Below, piece by piece: positions 2,980 to 11,034 of a DNA stretch of 12,116 nucleotides. The position numbers and the translations under genes were made by a program. Numbering within the stretch: position 1 is the first letter of the stretch; every line of letters starts with the position of its first letter. The notes below the pieces were generated by a model that was given only the letters and a program-made list of their open reading frames with translations, searched no databases and had not been told where the DNA came from. Where the stretch lies: assembly GCA_009786735.1 (NCBI GenBank), contig WQRM01000033.1, positions 1-12,116 of the forward strand, read 5' to 3'. This stretch comes from Oscillospiraceae bacterium (lineage in GTDB: Bacteria > Bacillota > Clostridia > Oscillospirales > Acutalibacteraceae).

Positions 2980-4740
2980 ATGAAACTCACCGGCGGAGAA
3001 ATTGTACTGAAACAACTCGTGGCACAAGGTGTGCCCTACATCGCGGGGATTCCCGGGCACGGCTGCCTGGCGTTGTTCGACGCCATACGCCGCGAAGAAG
3101 AAGCAGGCAACATCAAATACCTGCAAGTGAAGCACGAACACACCTCGGCCGCCATCGCCGACGGCTACTACCGCACCAAAGGCGAGCCCATGGCGGTGTT
3201 TGCCTCCATCGGCCCGGGCACGCTGAACCTGAGCATCGGCATCGGCAACGCCTATGTGGATTCCACCGCATTGCTTGCGCTGTGCGGCGACACCCATGTG
3301 CACATGATGGGCACCGGTGTGCTGCAAGAAATTGAGCGCTACCAAGACAGCAACATCATCCGCAGCCTCGAGCCCCTAGCCAAGCGCACCTGGCGTGCCG
3401 AAAACGCTCGCCAGCTGCCGCGCATGATGTCACGCGCGTTCCGGCAGATGCTGCAAGGTCGTCCGGGGCCATGCGTGATCGCGCTGCCCATGGACGTGCA
3501 GGCCGAAGCGATTGACTGCAACATCGCAGCGGTCGAGCCGCCTGCGGTGCCCTGTGCGGATGCCGCGAGCATCGCCAAAGCGGCAGCGGTGATGAAAACC
3601 GCCAAGCGTCCGGTGATTATGGTCGGTGGCGGTGCGCTGTATGCCAAAGCTGGGGAGCTCATCACCCAGCTGGCCGAAGCTTGGGGTGCTGCGATCATCA
3701 CCACCATGGCGGGCAAAGGCACGGTTGCCGAAACCCACCCGCAAGTGGGCTTTCATACCGGCAGCAAAGGCACAGCCATTGGCGTGGAGCTCACCCGCAA
3801 GGCCGACGTTGTGCTGGCAGTGGGCACGCGCTTTGCCGACGAAACCACCTGTTCATACCGCAAAGGGGCTGCGTTTAACTTCCCCGAAACCAAGCTCGTG
3901 CACATCGACCTTGACGCGGGCGAGCTGGGCAAGAACTACACGCCTGACGTTGCCATCAACGCGGACTTGTGTGACAGCTTACGCCAGCTGCTGGGGCACG
4001 ACTTTGCCGCCAACGCAGACTATCTCGCGGAAATCAAGCAGCTGCGTGAAGACTGGTTTGCTTATCTCGCGCAAGTGCGTGCACAGCCAACCGACCAACT
4101 CACCATCTCGCAGCTCACCGGCATTTTGAACGAAACCCTGCCGGAGAATACCATCATTTCCACATCCTCGGGCAACACGCAGGCGCAGTTGTTCCAAGAG
4201 TATTGCTACCCGCAAGCCGGCTGCAACCTCACCACGGGTGGGTTTTCCACCATGGGCTGGGCAGTGCCTGCGGCCATGGGCGCGAAGCTCGCCGCACCCG
4301 ACCAACCCGTCATCGCCTACCTCGGCGACGGCGACTTCATGATGACCATGCAGGAGCTTTCCACCATCGCGCAGTACGACATCCCCGTGGTCGTCGTTCT
4401 CGCAGACAACCACGGCTGGATGGCCATCAAAGACCTGCAAATCGGCGCGCTGGGTGCCGAAACCGCCTTTGGCAACGACTTCGCGCCCGGCACGGACTTC
4501 GCCGCCATCGCCGAAGCCTTTGGTGTGGCTGCATGGCGTGCAAACACCGCAGATGAAGTCAAGCAAGCGCTGAATGAATCCATCGCAAGCGGAAAGCCGG
4601 GCTTTATCCACATTAACGTGTGCCGTGAACACCCGAACTCGGGCGGTCGCGCATTCGGGTGGTGGGATGTGCCCGTGCCTGCCTATCTGGAAGAACGCCG
4701 CGAAGTCTATGAACAAGCCGCAAAGGAGGAGTTAGTGTGA
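2980..4740 (+). CDS. ThDP-dependent enzyme, IolD / acetolactate-synthase-like
   Basis: A 586-residue protein with the three-domain layout of acetolactate synthase-type enzymes. An N-terminal ThDP-pyrimidine domain (about 1-170) holds the activating glutamate E53 in VKHEHTSAAIADGYYR and SIGPGTLN. A central domain follows (about 185-330). The C-terminal ThDP-diphosphate domain (about 365-560) holds GDGDFMMTMQELS (from G449) and ADNHGW, fitting the GDG-X26-N cofactor motif. The C-terminal WWDVPVPAYLEE resembles the end of IolD, the diketone hydrolase of myo-inositol catabolism, as I recall it, but the protein is shorter than IolD (about 640) and there is no IolE, IolB or IolC. Sulfoacetaldehyde acetyltransferase or carboligase activities remain possible. 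I prefer the ATG at 2980 (8 nt from AAGGAG) over the one at 2974, which is only 2 nt away. First gene of the operon; its TGA overlaps the next ATG by one base. Confidence 0.85.
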   Translation: MKLTGGEIVLKQLVAQGVPYIAGIPGHGCLALFDAIRREEEAGNIKYLQVKHEHTSAAIADGYYRTKGEPMAVFASIGPGTLNLSIGIGNAYVDSTALLALCGDTHVHMMGTGVLQEIERYQDSNIIRSLEPLAKRTWRAENARQLPRMMSRAFRQMLQGRPGPCVIALPMDVQAEAIDCNIAAVEPPAVPCADAASIAKAAAVMKTAKRPVIMVGGGALYAKAGELITQLAEAWGAAIITTMAGKGTVAETHPQVGFHTGSKGTAIGVELTRKADVVLAVGTRFADETTCSYRKGAAFNFPETKLVHIDLDAGELGKNYTPDVAINADLCDSLRQLLGHDFAANADYLAEIKQLREDWFAYLAQVRAQPTDQLTISQLTGILNETLPENTIISTSSGNTQAQLFQEYCYPQAGCNLTTGGFSTMGWAVPAAMGAKLAAPDQPVIAYLGDGDFMMTMQELSTIAQYDIPVVVVLADNHGWMAIKDLQIGALGAETAFGNDFAPGTDFAAIAEAFGVAAWRANTADEVKQALNESIASGKPGFIHINVCREHPNSGGRAFGWWDVPVPAYLEERREVYEQAAKEELV

Positions 4741-5939
4741 TGAATAAGCTCAAATTTGTGTTGATTGGCTGTGGTCGCATTGCAAGCCTGCATGTTGCGG
4801 GCTACAAAGACCACCCGCAAGTGCAACTGTGGGGCGTGTGTGACATCAACAAAAGCGCCGCGCAAACCTTCGCCCAAGAGCACGGCGTGCCGCATGTATA
4901 CGACAGCTTTGACGATGTGCTCGCCGACCCCGAAGTCGTTGCCGTGGAGCTGCTGATTCCGCACCACCTGCACTGTGAATATAGCGTGCGGGCGTGCAAC
5001 GCGGGCAAGCATGTGAGCGTGCAAAAGCCCATGGCGATGAATCTGGCGCAGTGCGATGAGATGATCGCCGCCGCAAAAGCGAACAACGTGACGCTCAAAG
5101 TCTACGAAAACTTTGTGTTCTACCCACCCTATCAACTGGCGAAAAAGCTGCTGGATGACGGCGAAATCGGCAGCCCCCGTGGCATCCGCTTGAAGATGAA
5201 CAACGCGGGCTTGGCCTCCAGCAACCTGCCGATTGACAAAAAAGTCAAACGCGGCGACGTGGCTGCCGGCGAGCTTGTGGAAAAAACCGGCTGGGCAATT
5301 GACCCGAAAAGCTGGCTGTGGCGCTTTAACGAAACGCTCAGCGGTGGCGGGCCCACGGTGTTTGATGATGGCTACCACAAGTTCAGCGTGGCGATGTATT
5401 TGCTGGGCGACGTGGAGAAGGTTTGCGCGTGGATTGACAGCACGCAAATTCTGCCCGGCGTTGCGCTGGATACCCCGGCGACGATCATGTTCAAGTACAA
5501 AGACCGCCCGCTGTATGGCGTGTGGGACGTGATGAGCAGCGACGAAATGTATGTGCAAAGCAAGTATTACACTTGCGATGAGCGCGTGGAAATCACGGGC
5601 TCGCGCGGGGTGATTTGGATTACGCGCTGCACGGCAGTTATGCAGCCCGAGGTCGCGCCGGTGATCATGTATCGCGACGGCGAAACCACGGAATATTGGG
5701 ACATGAAGCACGACTGGGCGGATTCGTTTGAACATTGCTCGCTGGATTTCATCGACAGCGTGGTCAACCAACGCGAGCCGATGCTCACCGGCGAACGCGG
5801 GCGCGAGGTGCTCAAGTTTGCCCTAGCGGCCATTGATTCCTCGGCGCAGAACAAAGAAATCCACCTCGACGACTACGAAGACAAAGCCGTGCTGAAACAA
5901 AGAGGCTTGCTTGGCTCGCTGTTTGGGAGACACAAATGA
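4740..5939 (+). CDS. Gfo/Idh/MocA-family NAD(P)-dependent dehydrogenase
   Basis: A 399-residue oxidoreductase. The N-terminal Rossmann fold shows FVLIGCGRIASLHVAGY (residues 6-22), the dinucleotide-binding GxGxxA pattern. The usual catalytic EKP motif reads QKP (95-97), keeping Lys96. The second domain carries GGGPTVFDDGYHKFSVAMYLLG (starting at about 202), containing the Asp and His (D210, H213) expected in the active site. Family members oxidise hydroxyls of inositols, sugars and sugar acids (for example IolG) to ketones. The ATG at 4740 is preferred to an overlapping GTG at 4737, because AAAGGAGGA (4722-4730) lies 9 nt before the ATG. It overlaps the preceding gene by one base and the following gene by 4 bp (ATGA). 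It probably supplies the keto substrate for the ThDP enzymes; the substrate itself is unknown. Confidence 0.9.
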   Translation: MNKLKFVLIGCGRIASLHVAGYKDHPQVQLWGVCDINKSAAQTFAQEHGVPHVYDSFDDVLADPEVVAVELLIPHHLHCEYSVRACNAGKHVSVQKPMAMNLAQCDEMIAAAKANNVTLKVYENFVFYPPYQLAKKLLDDGEIGSPRGIRLKMNNAGLASSNLPIDKKVKRGDVAAGELVEKTGWAIDPKSWLWRFNETLSGGGPTVFDDGYHKFSVAMYLLGDVEKVCAWIDSTQILPGVALDTPATIMFKYKDRPLYGVWDVMSSDEMYVQSKYYTCDERVEITGSRGVIWITRCTAVMQPEVAPVIMYRDGETTEYWDMKHDWADSFEHCSLDFIDSVVNQREPMLTGERGREVLKFALAAIDSSAQNKEIHLDDYEDKAVLKQRGLLGSLFGRHK

Positions 5940-7703: not shown

Positions 7704-8282
7704 ATGAAAATCGCAGTAATCAGCGAAGTCTCGGCGCGCGACAAAAACGGCATGATCGTCAAAGCCTTGCAAGAGGCAACGGACGCAGAAATCCTCAACC
7801 TTGGCATGAGCGAAAGCGGCGACGAGCCGGAGCTCACCTATGTGCACACCGGGCTGATGGCAGCACTGGTGCTCGACCAGAACATCGCGGACTTTGTGGT
7901 GGGCGGTTGCGGCACCGGGCAGGGCTTTTGCATCAGCGCCATGCAATATCCCGGCGTGACCTGCGGGCTGATTCAAAACCCGCTTGACGCATGGCTGTTT
8001 TCGCAAATCAACGCGGGCAACTGCGTTTCGCTTGCGCTGAACTACGGCTTTGGCTGGGCAGGCGACCTCAACCTGCGCGACCTGTTCGCCAAGCTCTTTG
8101 CCGACCCCGCCGGTCAAGGCTATCCCTTGCACCGCAGCGAAAGCCAAGCCGCCAGCCGCGCGGCGTTGGCGGGCATCGAAGCCGTGGTCAAACGCAACAT
8201 GCGCGATGTCCTGCCCCAGCTGGACCAAGACATCGTTGGTCGTGTGTTGAATCACGCGCCCTTCAGCGCCCTTTTCGCATAA
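7704..8282 (+). CDS. RpiB/LacAB-family isomerase, long DhuI-like type
   Basis: A 192-residue protein, longer than standard ribose-5-phosphate isomerase B (about 150). The core motif is FVVGGCGTGQGFCISA, with Cys69 at the catalytic position of the family. The segment after it reads QNPLDAWLFSQINAGNCVSL, where ordinary RpiB has a conserved CHD-type sequence, so that histidine is absent. GFGWAGDLNLRDLFAKLF and GYP follow. From memory this pattern matches the subgroup containing DhuI, which isomerises an unphosphorylated 4-deoxy-5-hexosulose uronate from unsaturated uronic acids, so the substrate may not be a sugar phosphate. GGAGG lies 8 nt before the ATG, only 2 bp after the transketolase stop. 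Last gene of the operon, followed by a strong terminator. Confidence 0.88.
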   Translation: MKIAVISEVSARDKNGMIVKALQEATDAEILNLGMSESGDEPELTYVHTGLMAALVLDQNIADFVVGGCGTGQGFCISAMQYPGVTCGLIQNPLDAWLFSQINAGNCVSLALNYGFGWAGDLNLRDLFAKLFADPAGQGYPLHRSESQAASRAALAGIEAVVKRNMRDVLPQLDQDIVGRVLNHAPFSALFA

Positions 8283-8298
8283 TCTAAACCAGATAACG

Positions 8299-8333
8299 AA
8301 CCCCCGCAGGCTGACGTAGCTTGCGGGGGTTTT
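8299..8333 (+). terminator. Rho-independent terminator of the five-gene operon
   Basis: AACCCCCGCA (8299-8308) pairs perfectly with TGCGGGGGTT (8322-8331) around a 13-base loop, and a short T run (8330-8333) follows. It begins 16 bp after the last stop codon. The stem would also form on the minus strand, but no leftward gene needs it. Confidence 0.92.
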
Positions 8334-8353
8334 GTCGCGCGCCCTTGAACCGC

Positions 8354-8401
8354 AATCGGATAAAAACACTAAAAATCGGATGTTTAGACGAAAAATTCGG
8401 A
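8354..8401. repeat. Phased AATCGGAT repeats upstream of the HTH-gene promoter
   Basis: AATCGGAT occurs at 8354-8361 and exactly 20 bp later at 8374-8381; a third related copy, AATTCGGA, lies at 8394-8401. Spacing near two helical turns would put all copies on one face of the DNA, just before the -35 box at 8420. They could be binding sites for the HTH protein encoded downstream. This is inference from spacing and position. Confidence 0.45.
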
Positions 8402-8419
8402 GAAATATTTGAAAAACAC

Positions 8420-8448
8420 TTGACAAGCCCGCTGTTTCATGGTATAAT
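8420..8448 (+). promoter_or_regulatory. Promoter of the HTH / small-peptide operon
   Basis: TTGACA (8420-8425) and TATAAT (8443-8448) with a 17 bp spacer form a perfect consensus, placed about 22 bp before the start codon. Transcription would begin around 8455, so the leader is very short and begins close to the GGAGGAGG ribosome site. Confidence 0.88.
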
Positions 8449-8470
8449 GGGTTGGGAGGAGGGAATTTTT

Positions 8471-8842
8471 ATGTCTAAAGAACTCGGCAAGGTTTTGTAT
8501 GCGGTTTTGCAACGCAACTTAGCGCCAGGCATGACAATCGCCAGTCTTGAAAAAGCAGCCAAATGTTCCGAGGGTACCGTTCGCAAAATGAAGATAGATG
8601 GCTCTATACCAAGAGCGGATGCGCTGCATCGACTAGCCAATGTGCTGGGAACAACTTCTGATGAGCTAATGAGAGCAGCCATGGATGAGCTCGCCAAGGT
8701 GGAGCAAGGCGCTGAAGAAGCAGGTGTTATAGAAAAAACAGAAACCTTTCATAACTTCCTGCGCACAGTAGAACTCTTCCCAGATCGAGAGATTGAGTAC
8801 CGCAAAGGAAACGAACGAATAAACTTGCTGCCAAAACGATAA
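8471..8842 (+). CDS. Small HTH (XRE/Cro-like) DNA-binding protein
   Basis: A 123-residue protein starting MSKELGKVLYAVLQRN. Residues about 22-67 read as a helix-turn-helix: TIASLEKAAKCSEGTVRKMK, then SIPRADALHRLANVLGTTSDEL. The latter is the usual closing helix of XRE-type domains (short helices, L-x-x-L-A-x-x-L pattern, then a T/S-x-x-E-L turn). The C-terminal half is charged, with no recognisable domain (residues 72-123), and may serve oligomerisation. GGAGGAGG lies just before the ATG; upstream in-frame extension to 8321 is rejected because it would cross the promoter. The gene has lower GC than the neighbouring operons and ends 21 bp before a small membrane-peptide gene, with which it must share a transcript. 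It probably regulates its own promoter. Confidence 0.8.
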   Translation: MSKELGKVLYAVLQRNLAPGMTIASLEKAAKCSEGTVRKMKIDGSIPRADALHRLANVLGTTSDELMRAAMDELAKVEQGAEEAGVIEKTETFHNFLRTVELFPDREIEYRKGNERINLLPKR

Positions 8843-8863
8843 ATAAACATAGGAGGAGACAGT

Positions 8864-9022
8864 ATGACCTGGTTACAACTTGTAGTCGCAGCAACCCTGC
8901 CGGTTCTCCTGAAGCTAGCCATCGATCTTATCTGGCGATGGCGAACTTCAAGGCCGCCACGACCACCGCGCCGCCGAACTCGTCGCGCCCAAAAGCACGA
9001 CGACGAGAACCCGGAAAGTTAG
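8864..9022 (+). CDS. Small single-span membrane peptide, possible type I toxin
   Basis: A 52-residue product with a strong AGGAGGAG ribosome site (8851-8858) before its ATG. It starts MTWLQLVVAATLPVLLKLAI; residues 4-24 form one hydrophobic helix that ends in WRWR. The tail is rich in Arg and Pro (RPPRPPRRRTRR) and finally acidic (HDDENPES). Length, a single N-terminal helix and a charged tail resemble small membrane toxins of the Fst/Ldr and TxpA kind, and the LVVA...P...L pattern recalls Fst, but this is a loose resemblance. Its 3' part and downstream sequence (8976-9045) are repeated at 9117-9185 inside a convergent small RNA gene, as expected for an RNA-controlled toxin. A plain small membrane protein partnered with the HTH protein is the alternative. 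Confidence 0.62.
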   Translation: MTWLQLVVAATLPVLLKLAIDLIWRWRTSRPPRPPRRRTRRAQKHDDENPES

Positions 9023-9045
9023 CAGTGCCTCCGTCAAAAGTCAAC
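8976..9045 (+). repeat. Direct repeat copy R1 (end of peptide gene and 3' UTR)
   Basis: R1 shares two blocks with R2. The first, 8976-9003, is 28 nt with one mismatch. The second, GCCTCCGTCAAAAGTCAAC at 9027-9045, is 19 nt and exact. A GAACCCG heptamer lies between them, and R1 has three extra bases (CGA) before it. The first block contains CTCGTCG and CGACGAG, which fold into a stem (8979-8985 with 9001-9007). R1 encodes the last 15 or so residues of the small peptide plus the start of the 3' UTR. Confidence 0.85.
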
Positions 9046-9053
9046 TGTTAACA

Positions 9054-9092
9054 AGCGCCCTCTGCATGCAACAAACACATGCGGAGGGTGTT
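9054..9092 (+). terminator. Terminator hairpin of the HTH / small-peptide operon
   Basis: Bases 9054-9068 and 9078-9092 pair over 15 bp, including four G-T wobbles, around the loop CAACAAACA. The tail TTACTTTAT is moderately T-rich on the plus strand. The hairpin lies 31 bp after the peptide stop codon. On the minus strand the tail is poorer, so I call it as a plus-strand terminator. Confidence 0.6.
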
Positions 9093-9110
9093 ACTTTATA
9101 AGCAACAAGC

Positions 9111-9197
9111 AAAAAAGAACTCGTCGCACCCAAAAGCACGACGAGAACCCGAAGCAACAAACGGCAGCCTCCGTCAAAAGTCAACCGCCTATCGCCG
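9111..9197 (-). ncRNA. Candidate antisense (antitoxin) RNA of about 87 nt
   Basis: A consensus promoter (9204-9232) would start a leftward RNA near 9197. The RNA runs through the whole of repeat R2, then meets an intrinsic terminator: CTCGTCG (from 9145) pairs with CGACGAG (ending at 9120), followed by TTCTTTTTT (to 9111). No reading frame with a ribosome site lies inside it. Because R2 is a direct repeat of R1, this RNA is complementary in trans to the 3' part of the small-peptide mRNA: 27 of 28 nt in one block and 19 of 19 in the other. Both partners can form hairpins exposing loops in the shared block. That architecture fits type I toxin-antitoxin loci. Start and end are predicted, not measured. 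Confidence 0.6.
9117..9185 (-). repeat. Direct repeat copy R2 (inside the candidate antisense RNA)
   Basis: The partner of R1, 141 bp to its right. Differences from R1 are one substitution (A9128), a missing CGA triplet and a divergent 13-15 nt spacer. Only this copy is followed on the minus strand by a T run, so only R2 works as a terminator. The stem (9120-9126 with 9139-9145) is intact in both copies although flanking bases differ, which suggests selection on structure. Confidence 0.85.
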
Positions 9198-9203
9198 CTG
9201 ATT

Positions 9204-9232
9204 ATTATACCACAACTGAGCAAGTTTGTCAA
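9204..9232 (-). promoter_or_regulatory. Promoter of the candidate antisense RNA
   Basis: The minus strand carries TTGACA (9232-9227) and TATAAT (9209-9204) with a 17 bp spacer, a perfect consensus. It points left toward the small-peptide gene. No protein-coding gene with a ribosome site follows it, which supports an RNA product. Confidence 0.85.
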
Positions 9233-9316
9233 CCCCAAATCTCAGCTTGACACAGTCCTCCTCAAACCAAAGTGAATGCTATGTGCCGCTGGCGCGCCTT
9301 AACCTCAATGCAGTCC
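9233..9316. other. Short intergenic gap, no gene or terminator seen
   Basis: Between the candidate antisense promoter and the end of the ABC ATPase gene I find no credible gene and no terminator hairpin for the leftward ABC operon. A minus-strand GAGGAGG near 9259-9265 is followed only by a three-codon frame. Confidence 0.5.
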
Positions 9317-10081
9317 CTACAAATAATATTCCTGCTCCACCTCTGCGGCAAAGTCCAGGCGCTTGAGCAGCCGCTTGCGCAGGTCTGCGAAGTCCGACGT
9401 GCCGCGATTGCGCGGGTAACCCATGGGCACGTCAATAATTTCGGCAATGCGTCCCGGGCGCGGCGCCATCACAATGATTCGGTTGCTCAGATAGATCGCC
9501 TCGTCCACATCGTGCGTGATGAGCACCATGGTGTTGCCGCGCGCCTGCCACAGGCGAATGATTTCGTCTTGCAGCACCATGCGCGTGAAGCTATCGAGAG
9601 CACCCAGCGGTTCGTCCAGCAGCAGCACATCCGGCGACACCGCAAGCGAGCGGATCAATGCCGCGCGCTGGCGCATCCCGCCCGACAATTGGTGCGGGTA
9701 GGCGTCTGCGAACTCCGCAAGCCCTGCTGTTTCCAGCAGTGCGCCCACGCTGCCGCCGTTTGCGCCGTAGCGCCCCGACGCCTTGAGCGCGAAGATGACA
9801 TTTTTGCGCACCGTTAGCCAAGGGAACAACGCGTGCTCCTGGAACATCAGCCCGCGGTCGGGGCTGGTGCCGTGCACCGGCTTGCCGCCGCACAGGATTT
9901 CGCCGCCGGTGGGCGCTTCAAGCCCTGCAATCGTGCGCAGCAAAGTGGACTTCCCGCAGCCGCTTGTGCCAACGATGGACACGAACTCGCCCGCCGCAAT
10001 GGTTAGGCTTAGGTCCTCAATTGCGCAGAACTCGTCGTCGAATGTTTTGTTCAAGTGTTTGATTTCGATTGTACCGGTCAT
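9317..10081 (-). CDS. ABC transporter ATPase, nitrate/sulfonate/taurine (SsuB/TauB) type
   Basis: A 254-residue cytoplasmic ATPase. Walker A GTSGCGKS (residues 38-45), Q-loop Gln81 in MFQEHALFPWLTV, signature LSGGMRQRAAL (132-142), Walker B VLLLDEP (152-158) and the switch histidine H190 in ITHDVDEA are all present, so it should be active. The sequence style (RGLMFQEHALFPW, DSFTRMVLQDEI) is that of the SsuB/TauB/NrtD group. The start at 10081 is chosen over longer in-frame options because it begins with MTGTIEIKHLNKTF, has AAGGAGGG upstream and overlaps the permease stop (ATGA). It energises the adjacent permease. No terminator is apparent after the stop, and the transcript may run toward the candidate antisense RNA promoter. 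Confidence 0.95.
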   Translation of the reverse strand: MTGTIEIKHLNKTFDDEFCAIEDLSLTIAAGEFVSIVGTSGCGKSTLLRTIAGLEAPTGGEILCGGKPVHGTSPDRGLMFQEHALFPWLTVRKNVIFALKASGRYGANGGSVGALLETAGLAEFADAYPHQLSGGMRQRAALIRSLAVSPDVLLLDEPLGALDSFTRMVLQDEIIRLWQARGNTMVLITHDVDEAIYLSNRIIVMAPRPGRIAEIIDVPMGYPRNRGTSDFADLRKRLLKRLDFAAEVEQEYYL

Positions 10082-11034
10082 GCTCCGCCCTCCTTCCAGC
10101 GCAATGCGCGGCGGCGGGCTACGCCAAGCACGGCGTTCACGGCGAAGAATGTCACCGCGATAATCACCACCGCGCCATACATCCCCGCGAACTCTGCCCA
10201 GCCGCGTTGCCAGTTGATGTACCAACCGAGCCCGGCTTCCACGCCCATCATTTCGGCAATCAGCAGCGCCGTGCAGGCGATGGACATCCCCTGCGTTAGC
10301 CCTTGAAAGATAAACGGCGATGACGCGGGAATCGCGACCTTGAAGATCATCCCCGGTTTTGACACGCCGAAGGTACTTGCGGCCTCAAAGGTGCTTTTGG
10401 GCACGTTGAGCACGCCGTTCATCGTGGTCGCCGTCACGGGATACCACACCGCAAGGGCGATGAGAAACACCGCGCCGCCGAACAAGCTGCCTGCTAAGAT
10501 TAGGATAATCGGCAGCCAGGTGACAGGCGGGATTGAGCCGAAAAGTTTCGTCAACGGTTGCACCCAATAGCGCGCCTTCACCGACCACCCCGCCGCCACG
10601 CCCGTGATGATGCCCAGCACCACGCCAATGGCATAGCCCGTGAACAACAGCCGCAGCGAATGCCCCAGCGAGGTTAAAAGTATTGCACGATCGCGGATGA
10701 TGGCGTTGAGAATAGCGTCCGGCCAGGGAACAAACGGCTGCGGCAGCCAGCCGGTTTTCAGTGTGGCGAAATCAAACAGCAGCACCAACAAAAAGACGAC
10801 CGTGAGCAGCGGCGCGCGACGGCGCAACTGGGTGTGGGCGCGTTTGGAGAACACGGCGGCAACATTCCACGCGGCAAACGCCAAGGCAAAGAAGCCCATG
10901 AACCAAAGCCAGACATTGGTTGGCGCATTTTGGTCAAGCGGTGTGAACTCGCGAAAATTCGGCACAAGCACGTATTGCAACATGACCAGCACCGAAACGA
11001 CGAGCGGCAATGTGCAGATGATACGATTTTTCAT
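10078..11034 (-). CDS. ABC transporter permease, SsuC/TauC type
   Basis: A 318-residue integral membrane protein of the binding-protein-dependent transport family. Hydrophobic segments appear at about 6-24, 42-62, 76-91, 127-149, 171-200, 248-265 and 286-304. The cytoplasmic loop that docks onto the ATPase (EAA motif) reads EAASTFGVSKPGMIFKVAIP (217-236). The two or three N-terminal segments before residue 100 make it longer than the usual SsuC (about 260), so it has an N-terminal extension. The ATG at 11034 has AGGAGG 6 nt upstream; a TTG further out at 11049 would place the ribosome site inside the gene and is rejected. The gene overlaps the ATPase gene by 4 bp and starts 36 bp after the binding-protein gene. 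Confidence 0.93.
   Translation of the reverse strand: MKNRIICTLPLVVSVLVMLQYVLVPNFREFTPLDQNAPTNVWLWFMGFFALAFAAWNVAAVFSKRAHTQLRRRAPLLTVVFLLVLLFDFATLKTGWLPQPFVPWPDAILNAIIRDRAILLTSLGHSLRLLFTGYAIGVVLGIITGVAAGWSVKARYWVQPLTKLFGSIPPVTWLPIILILAGSLFGGAVFLIALAVWYPVTATTMNGVLNVPKSTFEAASTFGVSKPGMIFKVAIPASSPFIFQGLTQGMSIACTALLIAEMMGVEAGLGWYINWQRGWAEFAGMYGAVVIIAVTFFAVNAVLGVARRRALRWKEGGA

Follow-up and report, generated by a model that had tools for sequence, protein, structure and literature searches.

Can an antisense RNA control a message when its own gene lies outside the gene of its target? This question is raised by positions 8420–9232 of a 12,116-nucleotide stretch of DNA (the window), which is contig C33 in the draft genome of an Oscillospiraceae bacterium (1.59 Mb in 227 contigs, 71% complete). 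A preliminary description read the region as a type I toxin–antitoxin module, related to known ones and differently arranged. The analysis presented here supports the RNA half of that reading well in silico; what speaks for the toxin half is the resemblance of a small peptide to known toxins. The RNA pair is likely real, and a toxin role for the peptide is plausible from its sequence. The reading that we favor, with somewhat better than even confidence, is a type I toxin–antitoxin-like module in which two kissing loops bring the antisense RNA onto the mRNA's 3′ end, with decay by RNase III as the probable outcome.

Results

A regulator and a membrane peptide share an operon

The region is flanked by an isomerase-like gene (7704–8282, PF02502) and by leftward ABC transporter genes (9317 onward). 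Its GC content is 46–55% in 300-base windows across 8300–9499, compared with 56–67% in most windows further out. The plus-strand operon promoter (8420–8448) matches TTGACA-17-TATAAT at 12 of 12 positions, with a TG before the –10 element, and the first gene (8471–8842, plus strand) encodes a 123-residue HTH protein of the Cro/CI (XRE) type (PF13443, E 8.9e-5, 23.1 bits against a cut-off of 22). Its structure model is confident for about residues 1–75 and has pLDDT values of 45–63 after residue 80; no similar solved structure was found below E 0.05. The HTH domain matched the PADLOC profiles RmrA (1.1e-4) and capH (4.7e-4). DicA, RstR and other repressors of the phage type gave weak matches below cut-off. 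Its sequence and model suggest that the protein is plausibly an autoregulator of the operon.

The second gene, which the preliminary description had not placed in an operon with the HTH protein, begins 21 nt downstream, so the order is regulator, then peptide. Behind the ribosome-binding site AGGAGGAG (8851–8858, plus strand), an ATG opens a frame (8864–9022, plus strand) for a 52-residue peptide with a single membrane span (best 19-residue hydropathy 2.06; helix predicted at residues 3–28 by a single-sequence model with mean pLDDT 71.7). Type I toxins are hydrophobic single-span peptides of typically fewer than 60 residues, and the candidate has each of these features. Such a gene is hard to obtain by chance. 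Among 5000 dinucleotide shuffles of 8843–9115, a Shine–Dalgarno (SD) site with a frame of at least 45 residues occurred 37 times, an SD site with at least 30 residues and a hydrophobic span once, and an SD site with ATG, at least 45 residues and a membrane span never. The single-span peptide and strong ribosome site of the preliminary description are borne out by these results, and likeness to type I toxins suggests that the peptide is probably toxic when overproduced.

Profile searches assign the peptide to no family. No Pfam Fst match appeared up to E 1 (DUF1639 alone matched, at E 0.094, below its cut-off), NCBIfam gave no match up to E 1, and PADLOC gave nothing. The PxxxG(C) motif of the Fst hydrophobic domain, as defined in the available excerpt of PMC7472228, is absent, the span of the peptide having PVLLK, and no similarity to a toxin of the TxpA/RatA group was found.

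An opposing promoter and terminator predict a short antisense RNA

On the minus strand, a promoter at 9204–9232 again matches TTGACA-17-TATAAT at 12 of 12 positions with a TG before the –10 element. The perfect opposing promoter described earlier is confirmed, although four other 12/12 sites lie in the 12-kb window; with five in all, a perfect promoter is not rare here. A promoter scan of 8000–9600 gave 4 promoter-like sites against 0.8 expected, and the terminator scan gave 5 terminator-like sites against 2.6 expected. The antisense promoter resembles that of a tRNA-Gly gene in the same genome (87% over 31 nt of the promoter region), and two of the three similar stretches checked in other genomes lie in loci with tRNA genes. 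The only Rfam match above cut-off is a tRNA at 1199–1272. Elsewhere in the window, two 12/12 promoters stand back to back (2859–2947; leftward at 2887, rightward at 2918) before a TPP-enzyme gene at 2974.

Transcription from the antisense promoter would yield an RNA of about 87 nt (9111–9197, minus strand), as had been proposed, ending at an intrinsic terminator whose presence at 9145–9120 was confirmed. The predicted RNA folds at –38.3 kcal/mol (z –4.74), and none of 200 shuffles was as stable. Hairpin I (9153–9196, minus strand) has a 13-pair stem (9196–9184 with 9165–9153; six G–U pairs, counted by hand) and a loop at 9183–9166. Hairpin II (9120–9145, minus strand) is the terminator itself, with 11 pairs, a loop of 4 and a T-rich tail.

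Two further features of the minus strand were observed. A hydrophobic frame of 39 codons runs from a TTG (9160), with a GGAGG (9172–9168) 7 nt ahead of it, to 9041; the antisense terminator would end transcription within this frame. Upstream (9233–9600), no site of the terminator scan separates the antisense promoter from the end of the ABC transporter genes (9317), and transporter read-through across this terminator-free stretch (9233–9317) could raise the level of the antisense RNA. The par locus EF0409 has a comparable gap, according to the available excerpt of PMC7472228.

The predicted antisense RNA is templated by a copy of the message end

The link between the two transcripts is a direct repeat. 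R1 (8976–9045, plus strand), the predicted pairing target, starts 112 nt after the peptide start codon and takes in the stop codon, with the last 14–15 codons before it and the first part of the 3′ untranslated region (UTR) after it. R2 (9117–9185) templates most of the antisense RNA on the minus strand and contains hairpin II. The copies share three blocks in the same order: one of 28 nt with a single mismatch, an exact one of 14 nt that overlaps it, and an exact one of 19 nt. The first and the third agree with the preliminary description; the whole pair aligns at 81% over 74 columns. Five of the six duplicated 16-mers in the window belong to R1 and R2, and in the bacterium's own, incomplete genome the 19-nt block at up to three mismatches occurs only in these two copies. 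A GC-rich exact duplicate of 16 nt (8964–8979, just upstream of R1, and 10468–10483, in the permease gene region) is probably due to chance. R2 can be read in the peptide frame for a while, the first gap between the copies being 3 nt. Just past R2, but not past R1, there is a T-run that would serve leftward termination. The promoter, the terminator and R1/R2 thus predict the partner expected of a type I system, an antisense RNA with its own promoter that is complementary to the peptide message.

Loops are kept and stems differ between the copies

Three hairpins are predicted at the end of the message, all on the plus strand. Hairpin B (8979–9007; z –3.44, with z –3.31 on the other strand) has CCCAAAAG in its loop. 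Hairpin A (9018–9052) surrounds the stop codon, with a stem formed by 9018–9026 and 9045–9052 and a loop at 9027–9044. The 3′ hairpin (9054–9092; –25.5 kcal/mol, z –6.68) is terminator-like with a weak T-run (ACTTTATA). The message had been held to end at this hairpin, so that the two transcripts need not overlap. The hairpin is indeed strong; an mRNA end near 9092–9100 is, however, less certain than was implied, because the T-run is weak and the terminator scan omitted the hairpin, whose loop of 9 exceeds the limit of the scan. The predicted ends (9092–9100 and 9111) do not overlap, and transcription continuing through the weak T-run would create an overlap.

The exact 19-nt block (9027–9045 and 9167–9185) coincides, give or take one or two bases, with the loops of hairpins A and I. 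The stems of these hairpins differ: their 5′ parts align poorly (about 8 of 13 positions matched with free gaps), and hairpin I takes its outer arm from sequence beyond R2. Folding is also strand-specific. Hairpin I (9150–9197) is stable leftward (z –3.29, 1 of 200 shuffles as stable) and not rightward (z +1.10, 177 of 200), as its complement cannot form the hairpin because six of the 13 pairs are G–U. Hairpin A shows the opposite preference (rightward z –3.90, none of 200; leftward z –0.51, 51 of 200). This pattern therefore favors exactly the two transcripts that the preliminary description had proposed. The second shared block forms hairpins B and II, again with complementary loops, but both fold on both strands (z –3.3 to –5.0) and say little on strand because the stem is self-complementary; only the A/I pair is strand-informative. 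Conservation between R1 and R2 follows RNA structure, loops being kept and stems being different. A Fisher test of the shared blocks against the middle gave p values of 9e-5 to 8e-4, for counts entered by hand after the pattern was seen. The strand-specific folding and the divergence of stems around constant loops are new beyond the preliminary description, which had not presented the pairing blocks as loops.

Pairing would start at two loops

Trans pairing over 28 nt (one mismatch) plus 19 nt exact, as proposed earlier, agrees with the repeat blocks and with the duplex energy: –120.3 kcal/mol for antisense RNA and mRNA against a mean of –68.8 (s.d. 4.2, best –90.9) for 300 shuffled antisense RNAs, a difference that mostly restates the repeat. 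Contact energies of the free loops are –31.5 kcal/mol for loop A and –9.8 kcal/mol for loop B. Blocking R1 lowered the openness of the SD site in all three segments, by an amount that depends on the segment (0.64 to 0.52, 0.59 to 0.54 and 0.56 to 0.25; 0.64 to 0.52 in the full mRNA), and made the start codon less open in one of the three; blocking loop A alone had no effect on the SD site. In these models a start-site effect of the kind that SR4 exerts on bsrG is possible, and it is not strong in the full mRNA.

We propose the following mechanism. A single mRNA (about 8455–9100) would encode the HTH regulator, probably autoregulatory, and the membrane peptide, probably toxic if overproduced. 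From R2, the copy of the operon's 3′ end, a short antisense RNA would be transcribed in the opposite direction; as its complementarity comes from this copy, its gene need not overlap the mRNA in the genome, and it would act in trans. The loop of hairpin I would contact hairpin A of the mRNA, around the stop codon, and the terminator loop would contact hairpin B in the last codons. From these kissing contacts the RNAs would zip into a duplex across R1, and RNase III cleavage with message decay would keep the peptide off, perhaps with a smaller additional effect on the start site. We put RNase III decay first because the start-site effect is not strong in the full mRNA and because txpA/ratA and yonT/SR6 provide precedent.

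The module has no credible relatives

The peptide found only itself among about 5.8 billion proteins, and the HTH protein found in the same collection only its own cluster of two sequences on two contigs (the longest 42,394 bases). Viral contigs held no relative of either; genome contigs held one distant HTH protein (L055, 32% identity), whose next gene does not encode a small peptide. A tblastn search with the HTH protein gave two weak plasmid matches (E 0.06 and 0.1) and no phage match. The module DNA matched no plasmid; two Caulobacter phage records match 8949–8992 in coding sequence (E 0.009).

Closer genomes gave the same picture. At a lax E ≤ 1, the module DNA matched 331 of 398 family genomes (best non-self 2.2e-4 over 25 nt) and the peptide 156 of 398 (best non-self 1.5e-4, with three stops inside). 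Both are taken as chance at that number of genomes, the peptide hits being seen via a repeat scan of 96 loci. Among 391 class genomes, only the bacterium's own matched the module DNA at E ≤ 1e-4. The HTH protein matched 2 of 60 relatives at E ≤ 0.001 (its own genome and one weak match) and 38 of 396 family genomes at E ≤ 0.01, its own included. Our script placed the match in 20 of 29 non-self HTH loci (the wrong one in L093) and missed 9; none of the 20 combines a gene for a span peptide with an SD site after the HTH gene and an R1/R2-like pair. Sites within three mismatches of the 19-nt block occur in 5 of 14 genus genomes; in four of these every such site has three mismatches, and a reversed control also gave 4 sites. 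The isomerase gene is present in 4 of these 14 genomes, including the bacterium's own; the module was not found beside it in the other three.

We also scanned for the composite design (a promoter of at least 10/12, a terminator within 170 nt and a repeat copy within the 600 nt that follow) across 112 loci totaling 646,155 bases, keeping the window and excluding five loci that overlap it. Of 56 short promoter–terminator units, the window's own and two in L096, a viral contig with dispersed 82-nt repeats, have a repeat copy ahead. L096 was rejected as a similar design since its repeats are dispersed intergenic copies, three in number, between small genes at 4617–5325; it is also one of three viral contigs matched by a 16-nt pattern, and the sole one inspected. 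L073 combines an HTH gene and a peptidase-like gene with two repeats spaced much as R1 and R2 are; it was rejected because these repeats contain a promoter and inverted arms instead of the tail of a gene. In this locus two copies of a 50–54-nt element with inverted arms follow the two genes (576–803). An 11/12 promoter with a strong terminator behind it overlaps one copy and may give a short RNA against the operon's 3′ end.

The module is an orphan, with no credible relative of peptide, HTH protein or RNA. The conservation of repeat pair and peptide frame that the preliminary description looked for in relatives was not found in these searches, which reflects an absence of relatives rather than loss in relatives, and R1 against R2 is the sole evolutionary comparison that remains.

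Discussion

The module resembles both par/Fst and TxpA/RatA and lacks defining features of each. With par/Fst–RNA II of pAD1 and its relatives, including Lpt, it shares convergent promoters, a small single-span peptide with a charged C-terminus, and direct repeats that make the two RNAs complementary, contact beginning at a terminator loop (available excerpts of PMC7472228 and PMC5608710). Unlike par, it has two separate terminators (9054–9092 and 9145–9120) instead of a shared bidirectional one, repeats at the end of the peptide gene instead of over the toxin translation start, an antisense terminator inside a repeat, an HTH gene before the peptide and no Fst profile match. In TxpA/RatA, BsrG/SR4 and YonT/SR6 of B. 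subtilis, too, the antisense RNA pairs with the toxin message at its 3′ end (excerpts of PMC4147584 and PMC5848175). RNase III decay is described there for txpA/ratA (PMC4147584) and for yonT/SR6 (PMC5848175), and yonT also occurs in a polycistronic mRNA. Those genes, however, overlap on opposite strands, whereas the module uses a separate repeat copy, and no sequence similarity to the three systems was found.

Other type I systems share single features. In TisB/IstR-1, ShoB/OhsC, Zor/Orz and DinQ/AgrB the antitoxin gene lies beside the toxin gene and complementarity is short (excerpt of PMC4147584), as here, but those pairs are divergent with pairing in the 5′ UTR, and the module is convergent with pairing at the 3′ end. 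The C. difficile modules have peptides of 50–53 residues without homologs, which the candidate peptide matches in size and composition, and convergent antisense RNAs (PMC6563280). In the Microcystis pair MsoT1/MsoA1, the complementarity of MsoA1 covers the coding region's 3′ end together with the 3′ UTR (PMC12390103); in both cases the genes overlap, and the available excerpts describe no repeat-encoded antitoxin. In the available parts of the open-licence literature, to which our search was confined (subscription literature being outside its scope), we found no type I system whose antitoxin gene is a copy of the 3′ end of the toxin gene.

Could the same features arise without a toxin? The antisense RNA might instead limit the HTH protein together with a harmless membrane peptide, as the switch of a mobile element or its leftover. 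We consider this unlikely, though it has points in its favor: the first gene is of the Cro/CI type, with its weak matches to DicA and RstR, and the GC dip (8300–9350) would suit an acquired piece. In phage lambda, moreover, the message for cII, an HTH-type regulator, is targeted at its 3′ end by the short antisense RNA OOP, although the OOP and cII genes overlap and no toxin peptide is involved. Against such a switch, R1 lies at the end of the peptide gene and not in the HTH gene, inspection of the open reading frames and a Pfam scan of nine of them found no phage or integrase gene in the window, and the peptide features are unlikely by chance. The order of regulator and peptide, 21 nt apart, might also point to a protein-based toxin–antitoxin or a signaling pair (a regulator with a secreted or membrane peptide) with the RNA as secondary fine tuning, much as antisense tuning of a type II pair is described for mazEF in the excerpt of PMC8749433; this we regard as improbable, the HTH protein being short, poorly modeled in its C-terminal part and devoid of a visible peptide-binding domain.

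It is just as improbable, in our judgment, that in R2 part of the peptide gene end was duplicated and is now decaying, with an unrelated leftward promoter and terminator or a non-functional RNA. That R2 still reads in the peptide frame for some distance, that the first gap between the copies is 3 nt, and that perfect promoters are common in the window, would fit mere decay; exact retention of the loop block beside differing stem arms would not, nor would a hairpin I that recruits sequence outside R2 and is stable only leftward, or a T-run placed just beyond R2 and not beyond R1.

For the type I-like module that we favor, the comparison of R1 with R2 suggests an origin, which we put forward tentatively, at a little under even confidence: the antitoxin gene would have arisen by copying the 3′ end of the toxin gene and transcribing the copy backwards, after which the loops were locked as two kissing pairs and the stems rebuilt independently, with the co-transcribed HTH repressor as a second lock on the operon. 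On this copied-tail reading, the antitoxin gene can sit outside its target because the loops stayed locked while the stems were rebuilt. A single orphan case cannot show how frequent such a design is, and the overlap-based search of a 2025 study cannot, by that study's own account, find non-overlapping antitoxins (excerpt of PMC12390103). If the reading is true, a duplicated tail with loops kept and stems replaced would be a route for an antisense antitoxin to escape overlap with its target, and one with a searchable signature: a repeat pair, an opposing promoter and a terminator inside the far copy.
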